From positions 1-64,000 of the forward strand of contig JAIOPP010000163.1 in NCBI GenBank assembly GCA_021413845.1: a DNA stretch of 64,000 nt. Reading direction: 5' to 3'. The notes under the pieces are model-generated. The model saw nothing but the letters and a program-made list of their open reading frames with translations, was not told the DNA's origin and did no database searches. Positions 27,091 to 55,749 of this stretch are shown here, one piece after another. The translations under genes were made by a program, and so were the position numbers. Position 1 is the first letter of the stretch. Each line of letters starts with the position of its first letter. The DNA comes from Planctomycetia bacterium. Its GTDB lineage: Bacteria; Planctomycetota; Planctomycetia; Pirellulales; PNKZ01.

Positions 27091-28458
27091 TTGAATACTT
27101 CCTTCCTTATACTTCTGCTTCTTCCGGCCGCTGCATTTTTCGTATCGTTCGTGTCGGCTCGAAGTTCGCTCGGTGCAAGCATCAGCGTCTTGATCGGCTT
27201 CGGATACTTCAACGGAATTATTCGCGCGAATTACATAAGCGTATTCACGACCTTCATGGTCGACATGGCTGTTTTAGGAGTTTATCTCGGCGCGCTACTC
27301 AATCAAACAGGACTTTTTAGGGGCATCGGAAAATTTCCCCTCGCCAGTTGGGTAACGGCGCTCGTTCTTTGGCCTCTCATCGTGTCGGCGGTCCCTCAAA
27401 ACGACATCCTCGTTCAATTCGTAGCGTTCCGAGGTACGGTTTGGCTGTTGCCGATCATGCTTATCGCAACACGGCTTACCGACGATGATTTGCGAGTCAT
27501 TGCGATTACTTTGGCGGGGCTGAATATAGTCGCTTTAGGTGCAGGGCTTTGGTGCTACGTCTACGGTGTAGAATCGCTTTACCCGGTAAATGCCGTCACC
27601 AAGATCATTTACATGTCACGCGATGTCGCGGGCGGACACCTTCGAATTCCTTCACTCTTCCTAAGTTCGGCCGCTTACGGTGGTACGATGGTCGGTTCCT
27701 TGCCGTATATCGTCGGTCGGCTTTTCAATACCAAGAACGGCACTGAAAAGCTTTGGCTGATTGCAGGGGTTTTTTCTGCCTTATGCGGCGTCGCTTTGTG
27801 TGCGGCACGAGCACCGGTGGTAGCCGCAGGCATTATGTTGCTTGTCGCTTGGCTCATGAGCGGACTTTCACTCAGGGTCGCGATTCCTATCGTGCTCGGA
27901 TTGGCTGCCTTCGCCACGATCGTCAGTTCTAATGAACGATTTCAGCGCCTAACCAGTTTGTCCGAGAAGCGTGTGATCGTTACGAGGTTGCAAGGAAGCG
28001 TCAACGAAAACTTTCTCGACCTGCTTATTAGCTATCCTTTCGGCGCAGGGATGGGCAGTTCCGCCGGAACAAGTATCCCCTACTTCCTAGCACACCGAGC
28101 ACCGAAACAAATCGGCTTGGAAAACGAGTATTCGCGAATCCTTATCGATCAGGGCTGGATCGGTTTATTGCTCTGGTTGGGTTTTATAGCTTGGGTACAT
28201 TTTCCTATCCCGCATTCAATCGGCTCTAGATCGCACATCGGGATCGGAATTACCATGATGTACTCCGCTAGCGTAGTCACATGGTGTACGGCAGTGATTG
28301 GATCCGGTACGCTTTCCGCTATCCCGGGTTCCATCCTCCTATTGATCAACATGGGAGTGATCGTCGCACGCCGACAACAGCTAGCGATGTCCGCCCGTCG
28401 CCGACCGATAAGCCGATCACTCGGTGCAAGAGTTCCGAGAATGAATCCCGAATCGTAA
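27091..28458 (+). CDS. Wzy/O-antigen ligase-like polytopic membrane protein
   Basis: 455 residues, TTG start. It is almost entirely hydrophobic, with ten or more predicted membrane helices. One larger loop ends in LENEYSRILIDQGWIGLLLW, the E-x-S motif and helix typical of Wzy polymerases and O-antigen ligases. Such proteins polymerise lipid-linked repeat units or ligate glycans to an acceptor on the periplasmic side. The TAA stop shares a base with the ATG of the ABC permease gene (TAATG), so polymerase and exporter are co-translated. A second Wzy-like protein lies at 46901-49765. Confidence 0.8.
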   Translation: MNTSFLILLLLPAAAFFVSFVSARSSLGASISVLIGFGYFNGIIRANYISVFTTFMVDMAVLGVYLGALLNQTGLFRGIGKFPLASWVTALVLWPLIVSAVPQNDILVQFVAFRGTVWLLPIMLIATRLTDDDLRVIAITLAGLNIVALGAGLWCYVYGVESLYPVNAVTKIIYMSRDVAGGHLRIPSLFLSSAAYGGTMVGSLPYIVGRLFNTKNGTEKLWLIAGVFSALCGVALCAARAPVVAAGIMLLVAWLMSGLSLRVAIPIVLGLAAFATIVSSNERFQRLTSLSEKRVIVTRLQGSVNENFLDLLISYPFGAGMGSSAGTSIPYFLAHRAPKQIGLENEYSRILIDQGWIGLLLWLGFIAWVHFPIPHSIGSRSHIGIGITMMYSASVVTWCTAVIGSGTLSAIPGSILLLINMGVIVARRQQLAMSARRRPISRSLGARVPRMNPES

Positions 28459-29351
28459 TGTTTTTTCTCGGCATGCCGCACGACGATATTTCCACCGCGA
28501 CCAAGACTTCGATCGGCAAACTCTTTGTCACGGGTAGCGTCGTTCACATTCGCCCAAGCGGCGGTTGGCGCGCCTTGGATCTAGCTGAATTTTGGCGCTA
28601 TCGCGGGCTGCTCCTGTTTCTGACGTTGCGAGATATTCAACTTCGCTACAAGCAAACGGTGCTCGGCCTTGCTTGGGCCGTCATACAACCGCTCTCGACG
28701 ATGCTGGTCTTTACGATCTTCTTCGGCAAGCTCGGCAAGCTTCCGTCCGACGACAAACCCTATGCTCTCTTCGTCCTTACGGCATTGGTTCCTTGGCAAT
28801 TGTTTTCCTACGCTCTCGCACAATCCAGCAATAGCCTCGTCGCCGAACAGCGGCTGATCACCAAAGTTTATTTCCCGCGACTAATCATCCCCGTCGCCTC
28901 CGTTCTCTCGGGCTTCGTCGACTTCTTCGTAACGTTTGCTCTCCTCCTCGGGATGATGCTGTGGTATGGGTCACCATTTAGTTGGTCGATACTCACCGTG
29001 CCGCTCTTTGCAGTCTTCGCACTTCTCACGGCACTCACCTTCGGCCTTTGGCTTTCCGCCCTTAACGTGCAATACCGCGACGTGCGCTACACGATCCCGT
29101 TCCTCACCCAATTCTGGATGTTCCTTACCCCCGTCGCATATCCTGCTTCGCTGGTGCCCGAAGCCTATCGCAATTGGTACGGCCTGAATCCGATGGCCGG
29201 CGTCGTGGAAGGGTTTCGCTGGGCTCTGCTAGGAACCGAACAGCCGGCCTGGCGCATGATCTTCGTATCGGCAGCGGTTATGGCTGCGTTTCTTGTCGGT
29301 GGACTCTTCTACTTCCGTCGTCTTGAAAAAACGTTCGCCGATGTCATCTAA
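28458..29351 (+). CDS. wzm: ABC-2 type polysaccharide export permease (Wzm-like)
   Basis: 297 residues from the ATG at 28458, one base overlapping the preceding stop; a longer frame from 28281 only runs back through the wzy-like gene. After a 40-residue cytoplasmic start it shows the family signature region FLTLRDIQLRYKQTVLGLAW, then six membrane helices, and ends in FYFRRLEKTFADVI, the usual C-terminus of O-antigen export permeases. With the adjacent ATPase it forms a Wzm/Wzt exporter that moves completed lipid-linked glycan across the inner membrane. Confidence 0.93.
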   Translation: MFFLGMPHDDISTATKTSIGKLFVTGSVVHIRPSGGWRALDLAEFWRYRGLLLFLTLRDIQLRYKQTVLGLAWAVIQPLSTMLVFTIFFGKLGKLPSDDKPYALFVLTALVPWQLFSYALAQSSNSLVAEQRLITKVYFPRLIIPVASVLSGFVDFFVTFALLLGMMLWYGSPFSWSILTVPLFAVFALLTALTFGLWLSALNVQYRDVRYTIPFLTQFWMFLTPVAYPASLVPEAYRNWYGLNPMAGVVEGFRWALLGTEQPAWRMIFVSAAVMAAFLVGGLFYFRRLEKTFADVI

Positions 29352-29389
29352 GCGTTTTTTGTATCTACCAATCGTCTACGCGATGCGTC

Positions 29390-30676
29390 ATGTCTGACAC
29401 GGTGATCCGCGTCGAAGGGATCGGCAAGCAATACCATCTCGGCGCTGCGCGTCCCCTTTACGGCACGCTACGCGATCACTTAAAAAGCTGGACCACGAGT
29501 TCTCTGCGCACATTACTTCGTCGCGGACGCAGCCTGGCGTCGAAGCCTTCGTTTTGGGCATTAAAAGATGTTTCTTTCGAAGTGAAGCAAGGAGACGTCG
29601 TCGGCATCATCGGTCGCAACGGCGCCGGCAAAAGCACGCTGCTTAAGATACTTTCGCGCATCACCGAGCCGACCGAAGGACATGCCGCGATCCACGGTCG
29701 GGTCGGCAGCTTGCTCGAAGTCGGTACCGGCTTCCATCCCGAACTGACGGGCCGCGAAAACGTGTTTCTCAACGGCGCAATCCTCGGCATGACCCGCGCC
29801 GAAATCAAACGCCGCTTCGACGAGATCGTAGCCTTCGCCGAAGTCGAGAAGTTTATCGATACTCCGGTTAAGCACTATTCGAGCGGCATGTACATGCGTC
29901 TTGCGTTCGCAGTAGCCGCACACCTCGAGCCGGAAATTCTCATCGTCGACGAAGTGCTCGCCGTCGGCGACGCCGAATTTCAAAAGAAGTGCCTCGGCAA
30001 GATGGGTGACGCCGCGAAATCCGGTCGCACGGTTCTTTTCGTCAGCCACAACATGCAAGCCGTCGCGTCTCTTTGCAATCGCGCTATTCTGCTAAGTAAC
30101 GGAGCAATCGAACACGCCGGTACGTGCGAAGATACGATCCTGAAATACATGCAAAATCAGTCCGAAAACATTTTAACGGAATGGAACGGCGAGGCAGGCG
30201 ACGAAGACGCTACCTTACTTCATACGGCAGTTAAGGCGAATGTTCCCGGCGAGGCCCTGCGCACCAGCGTTGCGATAAATATCCACATCTCCATTCGTGT
30301 GAAACGACCGATTTTGGGATTGATTTGCGCCGTCGAGATTCACAACAAACATGGCGCCAGATTGCTATATTCCAACTTCGATGACATGCTCCCGCCTCCA
30401 GCTACGGCGATCTCACCTGGCGAACATCATTTTATGCTAACCATTCCGGCTAATTTTCTTGCCGCCGGCTTCTATCAAATCATCTTTGATCTCGGTATTC
30501 ATGGCTTAAAAAGAATCGTCGATAAACAAGGGGCCTTGCAGATCCAAATTGAAAACTTGGATGGAATCGGCCGGAGATATCTCGCTTACGACAATGTCGT
30601 CCGACCTGCGTGGATATGGAACTTGCAAACAACGTTTGATACCCATTCAATCAAGCGAATGCTGATCGACGACTGA
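29390..30676 (+). CDS. wzt: Polysaccharide ABC exporter ATPase with carbohydrate-binding C-terminal domain (Wzt-like)
   Basis: 428 residues. The ATPase domain (about 1-250) has Walker A GRNGAGKSTLLKIL near residue 78, signature HYSSGMYMRLAFA near 163, Walker B EILIVDEVLAVGD and the H-loop LFVSHNM. Residues about 270-420 form a beta-rich domain of the Wzt C-terminal type, which in O8/O9a-type systems recognises the finished O-polysaccharide chain end. This suggests that the exported polymer carries a specific non-reducing-end cap. It lies 38 bases after wzm. Confidence 0.93.
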   Translation: MSDTVIRVEGIGKQYHLGAARPLYGTLRDHLKSWTTSSLRTLLRRGRSLASKPSFWALKDVSFEVKQGDVVGIIGRNGAGKSTLLKILSRITEPTEGHAAIHGRVGSLLEVGTGFHPELTGRENVFLNGAILGMTRAEIKRRFDEIVAFAEVEKFIDTPVKHYSSGMYMRLAFAVAAHLEPEILIVDEVLAVGDAEFQKKCLGKMGDAAKSGRTVLFVSHNMQAVASLCNRAILLSNGAIEHAGTCEDTILKYMQNQSENILTEWNGEAGDEDATLLHTAVKANVPGEALRTSVAINIHISIRVKRPILGLICAVEIHNKHGARLLYSNFDDMLPPPATAISPGEHHFMLTIPANFLAAGFYQIIFDLGIHGLKRIVDKQGALQIQIENLDGIGRRYLAYDNVVRPAWIWNLQTTFDTHSIKRMLIDD

Positions 30677-30695: not shown

Positions 30696-31691
30696 ATGAT
30701 TACCGCTTCAGAGCTCTCGGTCGTTGTTCAAGGCCCCATCAACTCGATAACGCGAACGGTTGTCGAATCCGTCCGAAGATTTCATGCGCAATCCGAGATT
30801 ATCCTTTCCACATGGGAAGGGGCGGATACGAGTTCGATCGATGCCGACATCGTGCTGAAGAACGAAGATCCCGGAGTTTTGACTTACGGCAATCGACCGA
30901 CCACGGACAACGTCAATCGGCAAATCGTTTCTACGCTGGCCGGCTTGCGTGCCGCTTCGAGACCATTTGCGATTAAGCTACGAACTGATTGCGTCGTGTC
31001 GCACTCTGAGGTCTTGAAATTGTTCGATCGCTATCCGGAACGGGCAGCAGATGGTCGAATTTTTCGAAATCGCATTGTTTGTTGCACGCAATTTTGTCGT
31101 GATCCGCGTCTTACGCCTCTGCTTTTTCATCCGAGCGATGTATTCCAATTCGGTCGAACTGAAGACTTGTTGAAAGCCTGGGACGTCCCGCTTCGCACAA
31201 GCGCAAGCACACGACGATTCGCTGCGGCGACATCTCCCAAGGCACTTTCATGGCGATCATTGCTTCCGTTTATCTCTCCCTTAGTTGCCGAGCAATATCT
31301 CTGGCTCGAGGTATTGGAGAAATCGGAAATTCGTATTCCCCTTGAATTTCAGGGAGATTGGCGGCCGACTTGGGTAAAACTCTCCGATCGATTGTTCGTC
31401 AACAACTTCGTTCCTTACCCGCCGAAAACATTAGGGATCGAATTGCCGACTCACTTTTCCGATGCCGTTCGCGATCCTTCGCAGACCTATTCCCACGATC
31501 ATTGGAAATCCTTGAATCGTCTTTATTGTCGAAATCGACCTACGCCGTGGAACGACCTTAAACTGATATTGGCATCGAGCTATCGCTTCTTCGGCTTCTC
31601 GACTCCGATGTTTTGGGCGCGTCCCGGCTTTTGGTCGCGGCTATTTCGCATCTTCAAAAACGCCGTGGGTTTGAATCGTGCGAATTCTTAG
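30696..31691 (+). CDS. WavE-like polysaccharide synthesis protein
   Basis: 331 residues. The N-terminal core has the pattern LSVVVQGPI, then AQSEIILSTWEG, TDNVNRQIVSTLAGL and FAIKLRTDC. This matches the WavE lipopolysaccharide-synthesis family, probably a glycosyltransferase-like fold with its nucleotide-binding strand at VVVQGP. A second conserved patch is FHPSDVFQFGRTEDLL, followed by EQYLWLEVL. It lies 19 bases after wzt. Three more WavE-like genes occur in the window (34836, 35990, and 54718 on the minus strand). Enzymatic activity is not established from sequence. Confidence 0.82.
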   Translation: MITASELSVVVQGPINSITRTVVESVRRFHAQSEIILSTWEGADTSSIDADIVLKNEDPGVLTYGNRPTTDNVNRQIVSTLAGLRAASRPFAIKLRTDCVVSHSEVLKLFDRYPERAADGRIFRNRIVCCTQFCRDPRLTPLLFHPSDVFQFGRTEDLLKAWDVPLRTSASTRRFAAATSPKALSWRSLLPFISPLVAEQYLWLEVLEKSEIRIPLEFQGDWRPTWVKLSDRLFVNNFVPYPPKTLGIELPTHFSDAVRDPSQTYSHDHWKSLNRLYCRNRPTPWNDLKLILASSYRFFGFSTPMFWARPGFWSRLFRIFKNAVGLNRANS

Positions 31692-32307
31692 TCATCGCGG
31701 ATACTGGAAGAGCTCCGACGAGAAGAATTCTCCGGCGGCCTTCGAACGCTCGTTCGAGTTCGGTTTCGGCACCGAGACCGACCTGCGCGATTGCCTCGGA
31801 CGGCTCAAAGTTTCCCACGACCCTCCGCAAGCGGATGCCCTCGCTGCCGAGACGTTATTCCAACTCTATCGTTCGGCCGATCGCGACCTTCCGCTGGCCT
31901 TGAATATCAAGTCGGACGGTTTGCAACGACTTCTCCCTCCACTCCTCGCCGAGTACTCGATCACGAACTATTTTCTCTTCGATATGGCCGTGCCGGATGC
32001 TATCGCCTGGCTGCGGTTAGGTCTGCCGACTTTCACGCGCCAAAGCGAAGTGGAACGCGAGCCGGCATTTTACGACCAAGCGGCCGGCGTCTGGCTCGAT
32101 GGCTTTTTCGGCGATTGGTGGACTTCGGAAATCATCTCGCGACATCTGAAAGCCGATAAGCAAGTCTGCCTCGTCTCGCCCGAACTTCATGGCCGGGAGT
32201 CGCAGGAAGCTTGGGAGCGATTGGCTGCCGCGCCGTTTCGCGGCGATCCTCGCTTGATGCTTTGCACCGATCGTCCTGAATCGGCAAAGGAGTTTTTCGG
32301 TGGGTAA
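31678..32307 (+). CDS. Glycerophosphodiester phosphodiesterase-like protein
   Basis: 209 residues from a GTG that overlaps the previous gene by 14 bases. The N-terminus MRILSHRGYW carries the HRG of the PI-PLC/GDPD barrel, TETDLRD supplies the acidic metal ligands, and VSHDPP gives the second catalytic His-Asp. The protein is shorter than usual (most GDPDs have 240-330 residues), and the segment between the HRG and the acidic pair lacks the common ENT element. GDPDs split glycerophosphodiesters to glycerol-3-phosphate and an alcohol. It begins a run of four short-overlap junctions leading to two nucleotidyltransferases, so it may serve precursor synthesis or trim a phosphodiester in the glycan. 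Confidence 0.82.
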   Translation: MRILSHRGYWKSSDEKNSPAAFERSFEFGFGTETDLRDCLGRLKVSHDPPQADALAAETLFQLYRSADRDLPLALNIKSDGLQRLLPPLLAEYSITNYFLFDMAVPDAIAWLRLGLPTFTRQSEVEREPAFYDQAAGVWLDGFFGDWWTSEIISRHLKADKQVCLVSPELHGRESQEAWERLAAAPFRGDPRLMLCTDRPESAKEFFGG

Positions 32308-32935
32308 GATTAAGGCTGTCGTGTTCGACATGGATGGCGTCCTCATCGACGCCAAGGAATGGCATTACGAAGCTCTCAATCGAGCTCTCAATCTCTTCGG
32401 CTACAACATCAGCCGGCTTGAGCACCTCACGACTTTCGACGGGCTCCCGACCCGTAAGAAGCTCGAAATGCTCACGCTCGAACGAGGCTTGCCGGCCGGA
32501 TTGCATGTTTTTCTCAACGACATCAAGCAGATCTACACGACCGAACTGATCCATAGCCGCTGCAAGCCGACCTTCGCCCATGAGTATGCCCTGAGTCGGT
32601 TGCGAGACTCAGGCTACAAACTCGCCGTCGCGTCGAACTCGGTTCGAGCGACGGTAGAACTAATGATGGAGCGAAGTTGGTTGAAGCCGTATCTCGAGGT
32701 TCTGCTGAGCAATCAAGATGTGCGGCAGGCAAAGCCAGATCCGGAGATTTATCTCACCGCCGCATCAAGGCTTGGTCTTGCTCCCGGCGAATGCTTGGTC
32801 GTCGAAGACAACCCGAACGGGATCAAAGCTGCGGAAGGTGCCGGCTGTCCGGTGCTGGTCGTCGGCAGCGTACACGACGTTCATCTCACGAGCATTTGCG
32901 AAGCGATTCGCCGGGCGGAAGGAGGCCGATCATGA
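32300..32935 (+). CDS. HAD-superfamily phosphatase (beta-PGM-like)
   Basis: 211 residues, GTG start overlapping the GDPD-like gene by eight bases. All four HAD motifs are visible: VVFDMDGVLID (nucleophile and acid Asp), VASNS (motif II), the Lys of QAKPDPEIYL (motif III) and VVEDNPNGIKAA (motif IV). The cap is helical, inserted after motif I, as in beta-phosphoglucomutase and related sugar phosphatases. It overlaps the next gene by four bases (ATGA). Probably dephosphorylates or isomerises a sugar or polyol phosphate destined for nucleotide activation; substrate unknown. Confidence 0.88.
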   Translation: MGKIKAVVFDMDGVLIDAKEWHYEALNRALNLFGYNISRLEHLTTFDGLPTRKKLEMLTLERGLPAGLHVFLNDIKQIYTTELIHSRCKPTFAHEYALSRLRDSGYKLAVASNSVRATVELMMERSWLKPYLEVLLSNQDVRQAKPDPEIYLTAASRLGLAPGECLVVEDNPNGIKAAEGAGCPVLVVGSVHDVHLTSICEAIRRAEGGRS

Positions 32936-33705
32936 TCGTTGTCGTACCGATGGCCGGCGGCGACGACGCTTTTAAAGAGCGTGGTTTCTCCTACTGTAAA
33001 TCACTGATCGAAATTCACGGCAAGCCGCTCGTCGAACACGCCTGGGCTTGCTTACGTCCGCTCGCGCCGGAAAAGTTCGTCTTCGTCGTTCGTAAGGAAG
33101 ACGTGCTTCGCTCTCATCTGCATAGCGTGCTTCATCTGCTCGATCCCGCTTCGGCGGTTGTGCGAGCCGAAGGGCCGACGGCGGGGGCCGCTTGCACCGC
33201 GCTGTTGGCGATCGAACATATCCGCCCCGAGGCGGAGCTCATCGTCTCCAACGGCGACCAACTCTTCGATTGCGATCTTGCCGCCGTCATCGCCGATTTT
33301 CGGAGTCGAAGCTTAGATGCCGGAACGATCGTTTTCGATTCCGTTCATCCCCGGTGGTCGTTCGTCCGTGTCGGCAACGACGGCTTAGTGAGCGAAGCTG
33401 CGGAAAAGCGGCCGATCAGCCGCGACGCGACGGCCGGATTCTACTATTTCCGTCGGGGTGCCGACTTTCTCCGCGCCGCGACCGACATGATCCGTAAAGA
33501 TGCTCACGTCAACGGACTCTTTTACGTCTGTCCCGCGTTCAATGAAATGATTCTTACCGGCGCTAAGATCGGCGTTCATCGCATTCCGCGCGAAGCCTAT
33601 ATCTCGTTGGCGACGCCGCAAAACATCGATGAATACGAACAGCGAACTGCGCGAGCTTCCGCAGGCGATCGCAACCACGACGAGGACCGCGCGGACCATG
33701 CATAA
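32932..33705 (+). CDS. Nucleotidyltransferase-fold protein with degenerate signature
   Basis: 257 residues from the ATG at 32932, preceded by GGAGG; a longer frame from 32677 is an extension into the HAD gene. It is clearly paralogous to the nucleotidyltransferase at 34020. Both share the layout PMAG...IHGKPL/IHGRPM, a GAACT turn, N(G/C)DQ metal site, W-SFVR and a late NFRRG/YFRRG segment. The usual GxGxR...PKPL signature is altered, though: PMAGGDDAFKERG, and CKSL in place of PKPL, so the catalytic Arg position is lost while the Lys is kept. It may use a different nucleotide, be a regulator of its paralogue, or be a diverged enzyme. The ATG overlaps the HAD gene stop. Confidence 0.83.
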   Translation: MIVVVPMAGGDDAFKERGFSYCKSLIEIHGKPLVEHAWACLRPLAPEKFVFVVRKEDVLRSHLHSVLHLLDPASAVVRAEGPTAGAACTALLAIEHIRPEAELIVSNGDQLFDCDLAAVIADFRSRSLDAGTIVFDSVHPRWSFVRVGNDGLVSEAAEKRPISRDATAGFYYFRRGADFLRAATDMIRKDAHVNGLFYVCPAFNEMILTGAKIGVHRIPREAYISLATPQNIDEYEQRTARASAGDRNHDEDRADHA

Positions 33706-34027
33706 AGACCAACTCTCGGAGATGATCGGTGGCTGGTTCGTCGGCGACTTTGCGCCGGTCGCGCTCCGAACCGACGCTTGCGAAGTCGCCGTGAAGCACT
33801 ATGCCGCCGGAGATTACGACACTTGGCATTATCACAAAATCGCGACGGAAGTTACCGTGATCGTGACGGGCGAGGTCGAGATGAATGGAATTCGCCATAA
33901 GGCAGGCGACATCCTTGTGATCGCGCCCGGCGAAGGAACCGACTTCCGTTGCCTTACGCCGGTGACGACCGTCGTCGTCAAAGTCCCCGGTGCCAAGAAC
34001 GACAAATACCTCCGTCAAGATGAGTGA
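33698..34027 (+). CDS. Small cupin-domain protein
   Basis: 109 residues from the ATG at 33698, which overlaps the previous gene by eight bases; an alternative start at 33629 would overlap by 77. The single cupin barrel shows TWHYHKIATEVTVIVTGEVE, giving two His and a Glu as metal ligands, then GDILVIAPGEGTDFRCL for the second motif. In glycan loci such cupins act as epimerases/isomerases or as sensors of nucleotide-sugar levels. Here it lies between two paralogous nucleotidyltransferases, so it probably acts on their shared substrate or product. Confidence 0.85.
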   Translation: MHKDQLSEMIGGWFVGDFAPVALRTDACEVAVKHYAAGDYDTWHYHKIATEVTVIVTGEVEMNGIRHKAGDILVIAPGEGTDFRCLTPVTTVVVKVPGAKNDKYLRQDE

Positions 34028-34799
34028 ACCGATGCTTGAGATCGTGATGCCGATGGCCGGCCGAGGAAAGCGCTTCGCCGATGCAGGCTTCGTCGACCCG
34101 AAGCCGCTGATTCCGATTCATGGCCGTCCGATGACGGAAGTCGTGATCGACAACCTACGACCGAGCAAGCCGCATCGTTTTATCTTCCTTATCTTGAGGG
34201 AGCACGCGGAGCAATTCGGCTTCGACGAGCATTTGCTGCGTTGGGCTCCGGGTTGCGAGATCCGCTACGTCGAGCAAGTGACGGAAGGAGCCGCATGCAC
34301 GGTGTTGCTCGCGCGCGATTTGATCGATTCCGACCGGCCGTTGATGATCGCCAACTGCGATCAATGGGTAGATATCGAGATTGACGACTACCTCGCTGCG
34401 CTCGATGTTTCCGCCTCCGACGGTCTGATCATGACGATGTGGGCCGACGACCCGAAATGGTCGTTCGTCCGCTTCGGTGAGACCGGAAAGGTAGTCGAAG
34501 TCGTAGAGAAGCAAGTCGTTTCGAACGAAGCGACGGTCGGTATCTATAACTTTCGTCGCGGGCGTGACTTCGTTCGGGCAGCCGATGCCATGATCGCGAA
34601 GAACTTTCGCGTCAACAACGAGTTCTATGTCGCCCCAGCCTACAACGAACTCATCGCCGAGGGACAAAACATCGTTGTGTACAACGTCGGTCGAGAATAC
34701 GACGGCATGTACGGACTCGGCATTCCGAAAGATCTCGAATGGTTTTGCAACTCACCGGTTTCGAATAAGACGCGGATCGAGCGAACATCATTCGAATAG
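34020..34799 (+). CDS. Sugar-phosphate nucleotidyltransferase
   Basis: 259 residues from the ATG at 34020, overlapping the cupin gene by eight bases. The signature PMAGRGKRFADAG with VDPKPLIPIHGRP is the NTP-binding loop and catalytic Lys of the RmlA/GlmU/hexose-1-phosphate nucleotidyltransferase fold. The metal-binding Asp lies in IANCDQWVD, and PKWSFVRF and NEATVGIYNFRRG follow. It should make an NDP-activated sugar or polyol, but base and sugar cannot be told from sequence. It is the intact partner of the degenerate paralogue at 32932 and closes the overlapping five-gene block. Confidence 0.88.
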   Translation: MSEPMLEIVMPMAGRGKRFADAGFVDPKPLIPIHGRPMTEVVIDNLRPSKPHRFIFLILREHAEQFGFDEHLLRWAPGCEIRYVEQVTEGAACTVLLARDLIDSDRPLMIANCDQWVDIEIDDYLAALDVSASDGLIMTMWADDPKWSFVRFGETGKVVEVVEKQVVSNEATVGIYNFRRGRDFVRAADAMIAKNFRVNNEFYVAPAYNELIAEGQNIVVYNVGREYDGMYGLGIPKDLEWFCNSPVSNKTRIERTSFE

Positions 34800-34835
34800 T
34801 TCCTATTGCGCTCGTCGAACGATTTTGATGCATCT

Positions 34836-35945
34836 ATGAATGTTTCGCAGAGAGATTTAAGGCTTCAAGATACCGCACTGGCAATCTTATCCTGTGTGCT
34901 TCGTTTATTACCTGTCGCAGCTCTGCGAGGGATTTTCCGCGCGTCGATGCAAGCGTTGCATCGCAAGGGACCGTTTTGGATCACGATGCATCGACGTCCG
35001 AAGTCGGGAACCGCGGAATACTATCGTCCTGTAAATCCCCTGCCGATCGTTGCACAGGACCGATACGCCGTCGTGCTGCAAGGGCCGTTGTTGATTAAGG
35101 AGAATTTCACGCTTGAGACGATCCGTTATTACCGAGCGACCTATCCGGAAGCGCTGCTCATACTAAGCACTTGGAAAGGCGAAGATGCGGCCACGATCGC
35201 GCTTTGCAAAGAAGCCGGAAGCGAAGTCGTGCTCATCGACAAACCGACGATGCCCGGAGCATACAACTTAAACCTTCAAGCGCTGTCGACGCTGAAGGGA
35301 CTTGAAAAAGCCCAAGAGTTAGGATGCCGTTTTGCAGCCAAAACGCGAACCGACATGCGTGTCTTCGCTCCCAACGCATTCACGTTCCTAATAAATCTTT
35401 CGAGAATCTTTCCGTTGAAGCCCGGTGGGGCTCAAAAGAGTCGCATCATTGCCACAAGCTGGTGCACGGCGAGATACAATCCTTTTCAACTTGCCGACTT
35501 TTTTCTCTTCGGATTAACCGAAGACTTAATTCGTTATTGGGAATGTCCCCTTAATGAAGGGACTACCTCTCACGCGGTCTTTGGTGGTGCCATTGCGGAA
35601 CTTATATCTGCGGACGTTCCGGAGATATACCTTTGTCGATCCTATCTGGAACGCACTTTCGGTCGGGTCGAAGTCTCTCTGAAGTTTTGGTGGAGGGCGC
35701 TAGCCGACAAGTTCCTAATCGTGGATTTCGAGATGCTCGACATCTATTGGCATAAGTATCATCCGCATACCGAATATATTTCGCGCGCGCATGAGAACTA
35801 TTTGGCATGGAACCAGCTAACCTTCCGCGATTGGCTGCAACTCATGCTCGATTTCGATGCGCAGGTTTCCGTGCCGGAACAACTTCTCAAACTTCCTTGC
35901 CGTTTTTTAGTTCCCGCGAAATGGCCCGACGCGGGCGTGTCTTAG
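34836..35945 (+). CDS. WavE-like protein, tandem copy 1
   Basis: 369 residues from the ATG at 34836; a TTG at 34806 would add ten residues. The N-terminus has a hydrophobic segment (about residues 10-35), then LHRKGPFWITMHRRPK. The WavE-like core follows: RYAVVLQGPLL, LILSTWKGEDAATIALCKEA, AYNLNLQALSTLKGLEKAQE and FAAKTRTDMRVFAPN. Near the C-terminus it has FWWRALADKFLIVDFEMLDI. The next gene repeats all these blocks in the same order. Likely a glycan-synthesis transferase associated with the inner membrane; activity not proven. Confidence 0.82.
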   Translation: MNVSQRDLRLQDTALAILSCVLRLLPVAALRGIFRASMQALHRKGPFWITMHRRPKSGTAEYYRPVNPLPIVAQDRYAVVLQGPLLIKENFTLETIRYYRATYPEALLILSTWKGEDAATIALCKEAGSEVVLIDKPTMPGAYNLNLQALSTLKGLEKAQELGCRFAAKTRTDMRVFAPNAFTFLINLSRIFPLKPGGAQKSRIIATSWCTARYNPFQLADFFLFGLTEDLIRYWECPLNEGTTSHAVFGGAIAELISADVPEIYLCRSYLERTFGRVEVSLKFWWRALADKFLIVDFEMLDIYWHKYHPHTEYISRAHENYLAWNQLTFRDWLQLMLDFDAQVSVPEQLLKLPCRFLVPAKWPDAGVS

Positions 35946-35989: not shown

Positions 35990-37105
35990 GTGTTGTTTAA
36001 CCGCTTGAGAATTACTCCGCTGAGGAAGCTGAAGCTGCAAGATGCCGTTGCGACTTTCTTCTGCGGCATCTTAGTTTTTTTTCCGCTGACTGCGATTCGC
36101 GGCCTGTTGCATGTTTGCATACGGACCCTGCATCGCAAAGGTCCGTATTGGATCACGATGCACAAGCGCCCGAAACAAGTGACCACGGAGTATTATCGCC
36201 CATGGAATCCGTTGCCGATCCAGGCACTTGAACGCTACGCCATCGTGCTGCAAGGTCCGTTGCTTCTGCAAGAAGACTTTACGCTTGAGACGATCCGCTA
36301 CTATAGAGCGCTCCATCCGGATGCGATCATCATCCTTTCGACTTGGAAAGGAGAAGATGCGCACACACTCAAACTCTGCGAAGAGGCCGGCGTCGAGATC
36401 GTAACAAGTGAGAGGCCGATGGTTGTCGGTGCGTTTAACATCAACCTACAAGCGACATCCACGCTTAAAGGGTTGGAAAGAGCTCAGGAACTAAAGTGCC
36501 GATTCGCGGCAAAAACACGCACCGACATGCGTATCTATGCTCCGAACATATGGACTTTTCTATCGAACCTGATGAGCGCGTTTCCACTGACGGCCGACGG
36601 CATCCAAAGCCGCCGTATCATTTCGACGAATTTGTGTACTGCTCGATACACTCCGTTTTTCCTTTCCGACTTATTTCTCTTCGGCGAGGTCGAAGATTTA
36701 ATTCGCTATTGGAGTTGCCCGGTTCACGCCGGAGGTTCGTCGGACCATTGCGAGTGGAGAATCAAAGATCTTACGCCGGAAATCGTTCCTGAAGTTTATT
36801 TATGTCGATCTTATCTCGAGCGTACGGTCGAGTCCGTGGATTCGACATTGAGTTTCTGGTGGAAAGCGCTTGCCGAGAGGTTTCTGATCGTCGATGTCGA
36901 GATGCTGGATCTCTATTGGCCTAAGTATCACCCCCATACCGAACATACCTCCCTTCTCAATGAGCCGGTTTTGGGTTGGAATACGCTTCGCTTCCGTGAC
37001 TGGCTTCAACTCTTTCTCGGCTTGAACGCCGACACCTCGGTTCCGGAACGTTTTCTCGATCTTTCTTGCAAGTCTCAGCCTCCTTTGCGCTGGCCGGAAG
37101 CATAG
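35990..37105 (+). CDS. WavE-like protein, tandem copy 2
   Basis: 371 residues with a GTG start (GTG TTG TTT). The order of blocks matches copy 1: LHRKGPYWITMHKRPK, RYAIVLQGPLL, IILSTWKGEDAHTLKLCEEA, ATSTLKGLERAQELKCRFAA, TRTDMRIYAPN, ATG-distal FWWKALAERFLIVDVEMLDL and YHPHTEH. Differences are spread throughout, so this is an old rather than a recent duplication. Both copies probably act at successive steps or on related acceptors. It ends 80 bases before a GT4 gene that lacks a normal start codon. Confidence 0.82.
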   Translation: MLFNRLRITPLRKLKLQDAVATFFCGILVFFPLTAIRGLLHVCIRTLHRKGPYWITMHKRPKQVTTEYYRPWNPLPIQALERYAIVLQGPLLLQEDFTLETIRYYRALHPDAIIILSTWKGEDAHTLKLCEEAGVEIVTSERPMVVGAFNINLQATSTLKGLERAQELKCRFAAKTRTDMRIYAPNIWTFLSNLMSAFPLTADGIQSRRIISTNLCTARYTPFFLSDLFLFGEVEDLIRYWSCPVHAGGSSDHCEWRIKDLTPEIVPEVYLCRSYLERTVESVDSTLSFWWKALAERFLIVDVEMLDLYWPKYHPHTEHTSLLNEPVLGWNTLRFRDWLQLFLGLNADTSVPERFLDLSCKSQPPLRWPEA

Positions 37106-53683: not shown

Positions 53684-54244
53684 TTAGATCCGCTCGACTT
53701 CGAAATCGTCGAGTGCCAGCGAGGCGCCTTGCTGGAGAAAACGGACGGCTACGAGCAGCCGTTCTTTTCCTTGGCGCGAAATGACGACCCCTTCCATCCC
53801 GCGAAACGTCCCCGTCTTCACGCGCACCGGAGTGCCGGGCTCGATCTGCGATTCGATCGTCAGCGGCACGCTCGCCGCGATGAGTTTACGGATTTGACGC
53901 AAATCGGTCGTCAAAGTCGTGCCGTCGGGAACCGGCAACCAACGGCTTACGCAATCGCTCGTCAGAGCGAGTCGCCGCGCTTCGTCGTCGCCGTAAGCGA
54001 ACACATAGCCGGAGAAGAGAGGCATAAACGAGTCGCGCGTTCGGCCGGAAGGAGACTTCGAGCGTTTGCGAATCGTCGGCCCGTAGAAGGGAATTTCGAG
54101 CCCGCGGAGCACGCGCATGAACTGCTTTTCGCGTCGCGCACGAAGATAAAACGCCCACCACCCGCGCCCCAACTCCGCGCCTACATCCGGCCGCTCCAGA
54201 AAGTCGGCAGGATAAAGATCGATCTCGGCGGGGAGCAAAGGCAT
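53684..54244 (-). CDS. Specialised NusG paralogue (RfaH/LoaP/UpxY-like antitermination factor)
   Basis: 186 residues. The NGN domain begins GWWAFYLRARREKQFMRVLR, has the family's PFYGPT and MPLFSGYVFAYGD motifs, and ends near residue 125. The C-terminal KOW motif is PGTPVRVKTGTFRGMEGVVI, close to the canonical VRVxxGPFxGxxG. It has a 27-residue N-terminal leader and lacks the linkage with secE and ribosomal protein genes that marks housekeeping nusG. Specialised NusG proteins bind paused RNA polymerase and promote read-through in long polysaccharide operons. The large glycan locus and the terminator at 19196-19233 are natural candidate targets. Confidence 0.88.
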   Translation of the reverse strand: MPLLPAEIDLYPADFLERPDVGAELGRGWWAFYLRARREKQFMRVLRGLEIPFYGPTIRKRSKSPSGRTRDSFMPLFSGYVFAYGDDEARRLALTSDCVSRWLPVPDGTTLTTDLRQIRKLIAASVPLTIESQIEPGTPVRVKTGTFRGMEGVVISRQGKERLLVAVRFLQQGASLALDDFEVERI

Positions 54245-54717: not shown

Positions 54718-55749
54718 TTATCGATCCGATTTGGAAGCCATGAGATCCGAATTCGCAAACGGATCGGCTTGCGGCCCGCGCGTCCAACTCAGCAGTCGCT
54801 GCCCGATCGCATACCAAAAGTAGAGGTAAGCGTTGAAATAGCCGCGCGCGTCGATCCAAGGAACCGTGGCCCTCGGATCGCAGTAGCGGCGATACAACCG
54901 ACGCCATTCGCAATGGGTATACACGGCGATACTCTCGAAGTCCCACAGCGAGCCGCGGCGCCCCTTGAGATACTTTAAGCCGAGTTGGTTCGGCGAAGCG
55001 AGCACGAGATTGTTCGCAATCGTTCGTTCCGTCGCTTCGATCGCGCCGTCGGCCACGTCGGTCATGTGGCGACAAGCAACGTCGCCGTGCTTCCGCAGCA
55101 GGCCGAGCCACATCGTTTGCTCGGGCGCATAGCGTGCCGTCCTTCCACCGAGAAACGGAACACGGGCTCGATCTTCCAAACCGCACCAATTCGACGTCTC
55201 CGGCTCGGGTGCGAGCGGGATATCCCAAAGGTTGCGCAAGTCTTCGCTGCGACCGAAAAAGAACCAGTCGCTCGGATGAAACGGCATCGGCGCAAACCGC
55301 CGCGGGTTGATCGAGAAGACCGTCGAAGCGACGACTCGTTCGCGAAAGATTCGATCATCCCCGCCGTAGGCGTTGAACTTACCGAAGTAGTGCAAGAACC
55401 GATCGCCGAGCAACTCGAAGTCGGTTCGCAACTTCACGGCGTAGGGACGTTCGACGATTCGCATTCCGGCACCCGTCGACACGATTTGTCGATTGATGTT
55501 GTTCGGCGTGCGGCGCGCATCGAGCGGCACCGCGCCGGGATCGTCGCTCAAGACGAGTCGATCGAACGACAAGCCGGTGACGTCGGCACCTTTCCATGTC
55601 GACAAGATGATCTGCGCCTCCGGCAGATGACGTCGCACGGAGCGCAAGCAGCGGTCGGTAAATCGCTTCGCCGGTGGATCGCTCGGTCGGCCGGCGACCG
55701 CACCTTGCACAACGACGGAAATCTCACTGCTTGAAATCATCCGTGGCAT
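54718..55749 (-). CDS. WavE-like polysaccharide synthesis protein
   Basis: 343 residues. The core motifs match those of the gene at 30696: ISVVVQGAVAG, AQIILSTWKGADVTGL, NNINRQIVSTGAGM, YAVKLRTDFELL and FHPSDWFFFGRSEDLRNLWD. It shares with that gene, rather than with the tandem pair, the DDPGAVPLDARRTPNNIN element, so the four WavE-like proteins fall into two types. The C-terminus is aromatic and basic. It lies next to the NusG paralogue, apart from the main locus, and may modify the same glycan. Enzymatic activity is not established. Confidence 0.82.
   Translation of the reverse strand: MPRMISSSEISVVVQGAVAGRPSDPPAKRFTDRCLRSVRRHLPEAQIILSTWKGADVTGLSFDRLVLSDDPGAVPLDARRTPNNINRQIVSTGAGMRIVERPYAVKLRTDFELLGDRFLHYFGKFNAYGGDDRIFRERVVASTVFSINPRRFAPMPFHPSDWFFFGRSEDLRNLWDIPLAPEPETSNWCGLEDRARVPFLGGRTARYAPEQTMWLGLLRKHGDVACRHMTDVADGAIEATERTIANNLVLASPNQLGLKYLKGRRGSLWDFESIAVYTHCEWRRLYRRYCDPRATVPWIDARGYFNAYLYFWYAIGQRLLSWTRGPQADPFANSDLMASKSDR

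Follow-up and report, generated by a model that had tools for sequence, protein, structure and literature searches.

In the polysaccharide locus of Campylobacter jejuni HS:5, a short route of two proteins, a cytidylyltransferase and an NADPH reductase, leads to the unusual nucleotide-activated unit CDP-6-D-glucitol (PMC10918830). For the fructose branch of C. jejuni HS:1, one gene of 849 amino acids, HS1.08, is needed (PMC7901785). Here, we analyzed a stretch of 64,000 nucleotides (the window; positions 1–64,000 of contig JAIOPP010000163.1, Planctomycetia bacterium assembly GCA_021413845.1), in which five overlapping genes encode a GDPD-like protein, a HAD enzyme, two nucleotidyltransferases (NTase1 and NTase2) and a cupin. 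The block would resemble the HS:5 system in that few steps lead to an unusual nucleotide-activated unit and the genes belong to a polysaccharide locus; however, it contains no reductase. We consider it likely that the five genes form one mobile cassette and that its product is one nucleotide-activated building block, destined for a surface polysaccharide. This reading is based on the gene set and its order, gene fusions, residue conservation and folds, and we infer the order of the reactions, the partnership of the two NTases and the use of the product by WavE glycosyltransferases. The genes are arranged as follows:

31678–32307, + strand: GDPD-like TIM-barrel protein with HRG, ExD and HD motifs (GTG start; AlphaFold2 model and motifs)
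32300–32935, + strand: HAD subclass IA enzyme, beta-phosphoglucomutase/YqaB-like, mutase or phosphatase (GTG start; HAD_2 117 bits, TIGR02009 116 bits)
32932–33705, + strand: NTase1, nucleotidyltransferase fold without the GxGxR signature, probable partner of NTase2 (ATG start; NTP_transferase 22.7 bits)
33698–34027, + strand: small cupin with HxHx4E (ATG start; Cupin_2 18.3 bits, under the cut-off)
34020–34799, + strand: NTase2, canonical sugar-nucleotidyltransferase, probable nucleoside diphosphate (NDP)-sugar synthase (ATG start; NTP_transferase 44.7 bits)

The coordinates and the overlaps of 8, 4, 8, and 8 bases given in the initial annotation were exact. Both GTG starts agreed with the N-termini of the homologs, which read M-x-I-L-S-H-R-G in the GDPD-like protein and M-x-K-I-K-A-V-x-F-D in the HAD enzyme. 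The upstream WavE gene (30696–31691) shares 14 bases with the GDPD-like gene, and a WavE-like open reading frame starts 6 bases after the end of NTase2, which indicated that the coupled unit is longer than first noted.

The contigs of GTDB genomes were scanned with the GDPD alignment, which gave 256 relatives, and the best 80 loci of these 256 were analyzed. Gene-set counts were restricted to the 71 loci with at least 3.5 kb of downstream sequence. The HAD enzyme, the cupin and at least two NTases were present in 66 of these 71 testable relatives, and such recurrence indicated that the gene set did not arise by chance. The HAD gene lay immediately 3′ of the GDPD-like gene in 74/78 loci. Full sets were found in at least 11 phylum-level taxa, named here as in the records: Planctomycetota, Pseudomonadota, Campylobacterota, Verrucomicrobiota, Bacteroidota, Cyanobacteriota, Desulfuromonadaceae, Marinimicrobia, Myxococcota, Nitrospirota, and Bacillota. 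Alphaproteobacterial plasmids (Ruegeria and Roseinatronobacter) carried exactly the same gene order. No similar DNA was found in E. coli.

When 294 genomes of the window's phylum were compared, one alone besides the window's own held a strong match to the GDPD-like protein (58% identity); it belongs to another family of the phylum and shows the identical order GDPD-HAD-NTase1-cupin-NTase2-WavE. The cupin, as well as WavE matches over the cut-off, were confined to the same two genomes, and the strong matches of the GDPD-like protein, NTase2 and the HAD enzyme coincided with them. The probability that one such family picks the same two of 294 genomes by chance is 2.3e-05. The cupin is a single-copy gene in the window's genome. 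The initial annotation would have counted it against its interpretation if the families had belonged to separate known pathways and the gene order had not been conserved elsewhere; the order was in fact conserved, exactly so in another family of the phylum and on the alphaproteobacterial plasmids. The conserved set and order and the occurrence in the same genomes supported its view of a dedicated pathway, seen here as a module that is inherited together and associated with the synthesis of surface glycans.

The HAD enzyme carries equivalents of D8, D10, H20, S114, K145, E169, and D170 that were invariant in 87/87 sequences. Among these, His20 is the cap histidine of the mutase type, and a cap lysine occurs near K76, one alignment position off. 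These residues favor a mutase of the beta-phosphoglucomutase type over a simple phosphatase. The "sugar or polyol phosphatase" named at first has thus become uncertain: the enzyme matches the beta-phosphoglucomutase/YqaB subfamily best and its mutase-type cap residues do not vary, while phosphatases are also included in this subfamily.

NTase1 and NTase2 are 38% identical, and their sequences fell into two largely separate groups. NTase2 scored 44.7 bits to NTP_transferase (PF00483; cut-off 21.2) and kept the GxGxR..PK signature (Arg in 87/89 and Lys in 88/89 sequences). Its AlphaFold2 model (pLDDT 95) was closest in fold to 4evw, followed by UGPase, RmlA and GlmU. Signature and model together suggest that NTase2 is probably an NDP-sugar synthase. 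NTase1 reached 22.7 bits, just above the same cut-off. The signature Arg was found in 0/92 NTase1 sequences and the second Gly in 2/92; the EK lysine was kept in 92/92 and the metal Asp in 79/92. The two paralogous nucleotidyltransferases proposed at first need correction: NTase1 lacked the signature Arg in every sequence and probably serves NTase2 as a regulatory or structural partner.

The GDPD-like protein of the window had no Pfam match (PF03009), and two of 11 relatives matched this family weakly (best E 5.3e-05). Its AlphaFold2 model (pLDDT 97) gave TM scores of 0.70–0.76 to solved GDPDs. Residues R7, E33, D35, H47, N76, and K78 were invariant. The HRG, ExD and HD motifs were conserved, and Asn replaced the metal Glu of LxExK in 92/92 sequences, an equivalence drawn from the motif rather than from a structure alignment. 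The protein is predicted to be an active-looking enzyme with a phosphodiesterase fold. The cupin scored 18.3 bits to Cupin_2 (PF07883; cut-off 27.2), and its H44, H46, and E51 were present in 76/76 sequences; it may be an isomerase or epimerase.

Gene fusions linked several members of the cassette. A HAD-cupin fusion was found in a Rickettsiales metagenome-assembled genome. In the rhizobial, Azospirillum and Tropicibacter loci, NTase1 was fused to NTase2, the cupin was missing, and an extra third NTase-like gene, more degenerate, was present. The Pseudomonas-type loci placed NTase2 first, and in Campylobacterota and some Bacteroidota a SnoaL-like gene was inserted 5′ of the cupin. WavE genes lay inside the cassette in loci L050 and L082. 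A 591-amino-acid protein without a Pfam match recurred at 16 loci; in Pseudomonas-type cassettes, it frequently sits between the cupin and a WavE gene. Two examples are:

L019, 11397–13172: 591-amino-acid protein
L097, 10309–12084: 591-amino-acid protein

The cassette also had viral relatives. Three PHROGs families matched the GDPD-like protein, the NTases (a family of 495 positions) and the cupin. In phages, queries with the bacterial GDPD and with the bacterial cupin remained without a match, and the NTase2 query retrieved 19 records. In IMG/VR, a single-sequence search gave no match, and an alignment search recovered one contig with a bacterial-type cassette. A HAD-NTase2 fusion occurs in the Synechococcus phages S-CAM9, DSL-LC03, and B23, and both catalytic motifs were read directly in that of S-CAM9. 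These fusions lie amid glycosyltransferases and are annotated in the records as glucose-1-phosphate thymidylyltransferase or pyrophosphorylase:

L121, 5341–6726: cyanophage HAD-NTase2 fusion
L122, 1797–3182: cyanophage HAD-NTase2 fusion
L126, 5341–6714: cyanophage HAD-NTase2 fusion

Such a fusion argues that the HAD and NTase2 steps are consecutive. Short GDPD-like genes were found by profile in B23, Bellamy and S-SM2, with partial and weak matches, and in DSL-LC03 by annotation only. In phage Bellamy, an NTase2-type domain is fused to an RpiB/LacAB-type isomerase (L123, 5989–7146; called a phosphatase in its record) and followed by a cupin. This phage also has an aldolase/AraD-like gene.

We propose that a common sugar phosphate would be re-positioned by the HAD enzyme, that NTase2, together with NTase1, would then charge it with a nucleoside triphosphate to give an NDP-sugar, and that a WavE-family glycosyltransferase would transfer this sugar. 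No enzyme dedicated to making a sugar is part of the canonical cassette, so the precursor is probably a common metabolite. The conserved core contained neither an oxidoreductase nor a kinase. In distant planctomycete relatives, a GDPD-like gene and an NTase gene stand beside AraD-like and ribulose-phosphate-3-epimerase-like genes; together with the RpiB and aldolase/AraD-like genes of Bellamy, this hints weakly at pentose phosphates. It is conceivable, if rather doubtful, that the cassette is a new route to a nucleotide-activated pentose or ketose, comprising an active/degenerate NTase pair, a phosphomutase, a cupin and a phosphodiesterase-fold protein, serving WavE transferases and distributed over many phyla and partly carried by cyanophages. 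Fructose was considered as the product, given the fructose and WavE of the Vibrio cholerae core; this was unsupported: the fructose branch of C. jejuni HS:1 needs HS1.08, and nothing links that branch to the cassette.

A related, distinct cluster was observed at L014 4397–10221 and L015 8810–14658. It comprises GDPD-like, NTase, GtrA and AraD-like genes, an NTP_transf_2-histidine-phosphatase fusion, a 2H phosphoesterase and a GtrA-Rpe fusion.

Several observations weigh against a single five-gene pathway ending at WavE. The cupin is not universal, because the rhizobial type lacks it. WavE was found within 8 kb in 40/80 loci, and since the other half had none within this distance, it would not be the sole user of the product. 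An ordinary NDP-sugar route offers no obvious position for the GDPD step. The HAD enzyme scored 116.2 bits to TIGR02009 and did not reach the cut-off of 153.35; its subfamily also holds phosphatases (YqaB), so that a mutase is favored, not proven. Moreover, the 80 loci were picked by GDPD similarity and included close relatives (e.g., the P. syringae group), so the locus counts are not independent samples.

The phosphatases of this subfamily, several of which were among the weaker HAD matches, leave some room for an explanation in which the NTases alone are biosynthetic, and the HAD enzyme as a phosphatase and the GDPD-like protein as a hydrolase either recycle the product or, like GmhB in the heptose route, clear intermediates that are misformed or bisphosphorylated. 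Such proofreading would account for a phosphodiesterase fold in an NDP-sugar pathway. However, the HAD-NTase2 fusion in cyanophages, the invariant mutase-type cap His and Lys, and the absence of a bisphosphate-making kinase from the conserved core all speak against it, and we regard it as possible yet improbable. The markers of the GDP/ADP-heptose route (GmhA isomerase and heptose kinase) were absent from the block and not recurrent beside the cassette.

Less probable still is the decoration suggested by the initial annotation, an NDP-activated polyol phosphate of the CDP-glycerol or CDP-ribitol type or a phosphodiester, for which the GDPD-like protein and the HAD enzyme would supply or trim the polyol phosphate. 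The GDPD fold, the relationship of the HAD enzyme to hexitol phosphatases and the weak similarity of some NTase1 members to IspD/CTP_transf_3 would fit this idea. It was not supported: no reductase or dehydrogenase was recurrent in the conserved core and no reductase was found in the window block, whereas in the characterized CDP-6-glucitol route the NTase works with an NADPH reductase, which this route requires (PMC10918830), and the fold of NTase2 is nearest to sugar-1-phosphate NTases. It appears very improbable that the genes serve two or more unrelated functions and simply share polysaccharide islands as their vehicle. Polysaccharide loci are modular and often exchanged, and the pairwise distance correlations among the five families were just moderate (rho 0.42–0.60); however, the set was kept in 66/71 loci over at least 11 phyla, and several pairs of its genes were fused.

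In the window, genes for WavE-type glycosyltransferases flank the block, and the polysaccharide locus around it is of the ABC-transporter type. The best NCBIfam matches of the exporter were teichoic acid/galactan exporters, and the locus also contains an O-antigen-ligase-like protein, a polyprenyl-phosphate sugar-transferase-like gene and several GT4 glycosyltransferases. The neighboring genes are:

28281–30676, + strand: Wzm/Wzt-type polysaccharide ABC exporter (permease 28281–29351, ABC2_membrane 65 bits; ATPase 29390–30676, ABC_tran 83.8 bits; Pfam)
30696–31691, + strand: WavE glycosyltransferase (PF07507 209 bits, over the cut-off)
34806–35945, + strand: WavE-like glycosyltransferase (PF07507 61.7 bits, over the cut-off)
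35990–37105, + strand: WavE-like glycosyltransferase (PF07507 63.2 bits, over the cut-off)

A fourth WavE gene was located at 54718–55749 on the minus strand (PF07507 213 bits), with a NusG-like gene nearby (53684–54244). All four WavE genes of the genome lie within the window.

No description of the cassette was found in the open-access papers searched, and the earlier remark that it was not recognized as a standard nucleotide-sugar route was supported. If the single-cassette reading is correct, at least 11 phyla share this pathway and cyanophages carry part of it, and a common surface residue would be missing from current glycan annotation. It would also provide a donor for the WavE proteins, which have so far been annotated only with "LPS synthesis" (lipopolysaccharide synthesis), and an NTase pair in which one paralog is signature-less in every sampled lineage.

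Compared with known enzymes, the HAD protein is 27% identical to beta-phosphoglucomutase (1lvh) and shares its catalytic Asp pair, His20, Ser114, Lys145, and Glu169-Asp170; however, it is under the family cut-offs (116 vs. 153 and 90.7 vs. 189.4 bits), and Thr16 is replaced by Ala. The capsule phosphatase EcbF/BcbF (TIGR01689) is also a HAD-superfamily enzyme of capsule loci, whereas the cassette HAD belongs to another subclass (PGMB-YQAB); a TIGR01689 member adjoins the cassette in Campylobacter locus L055. The GDPDs 2pz0, 1zcc, and 3no3 have the TIM-barrel and the HRG/ExD/HD motifs in common with the block protein, which differs in being short (209 amino acids), in having Asn for the third metal Glu and in falling below Pfam detection. 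By profile, the closest solved structure to both NTases was 4evw, a nucleoside-diphosphate-sugar pyrophosphorylase of Vibrio cholerae RC9 from structural genomics (NTase2 109.7 bits, NTase1 99 bits); its fold agreed with that of NTase2 (TM 0.78), but the identity in the fold alignment was 24%. NTase2 has the fold and the GxGxR..PK signature of the sugar-1-phosphate nucleotidyltransferases RmlA, GalU, GlmU, and GMPPB, whereas the scores were far under every NCBIfam equivalog cut-off and NTase1 lacks the signature. A degenerate paralog next to an active one is reminiscent of GMPPA/GMPPB.

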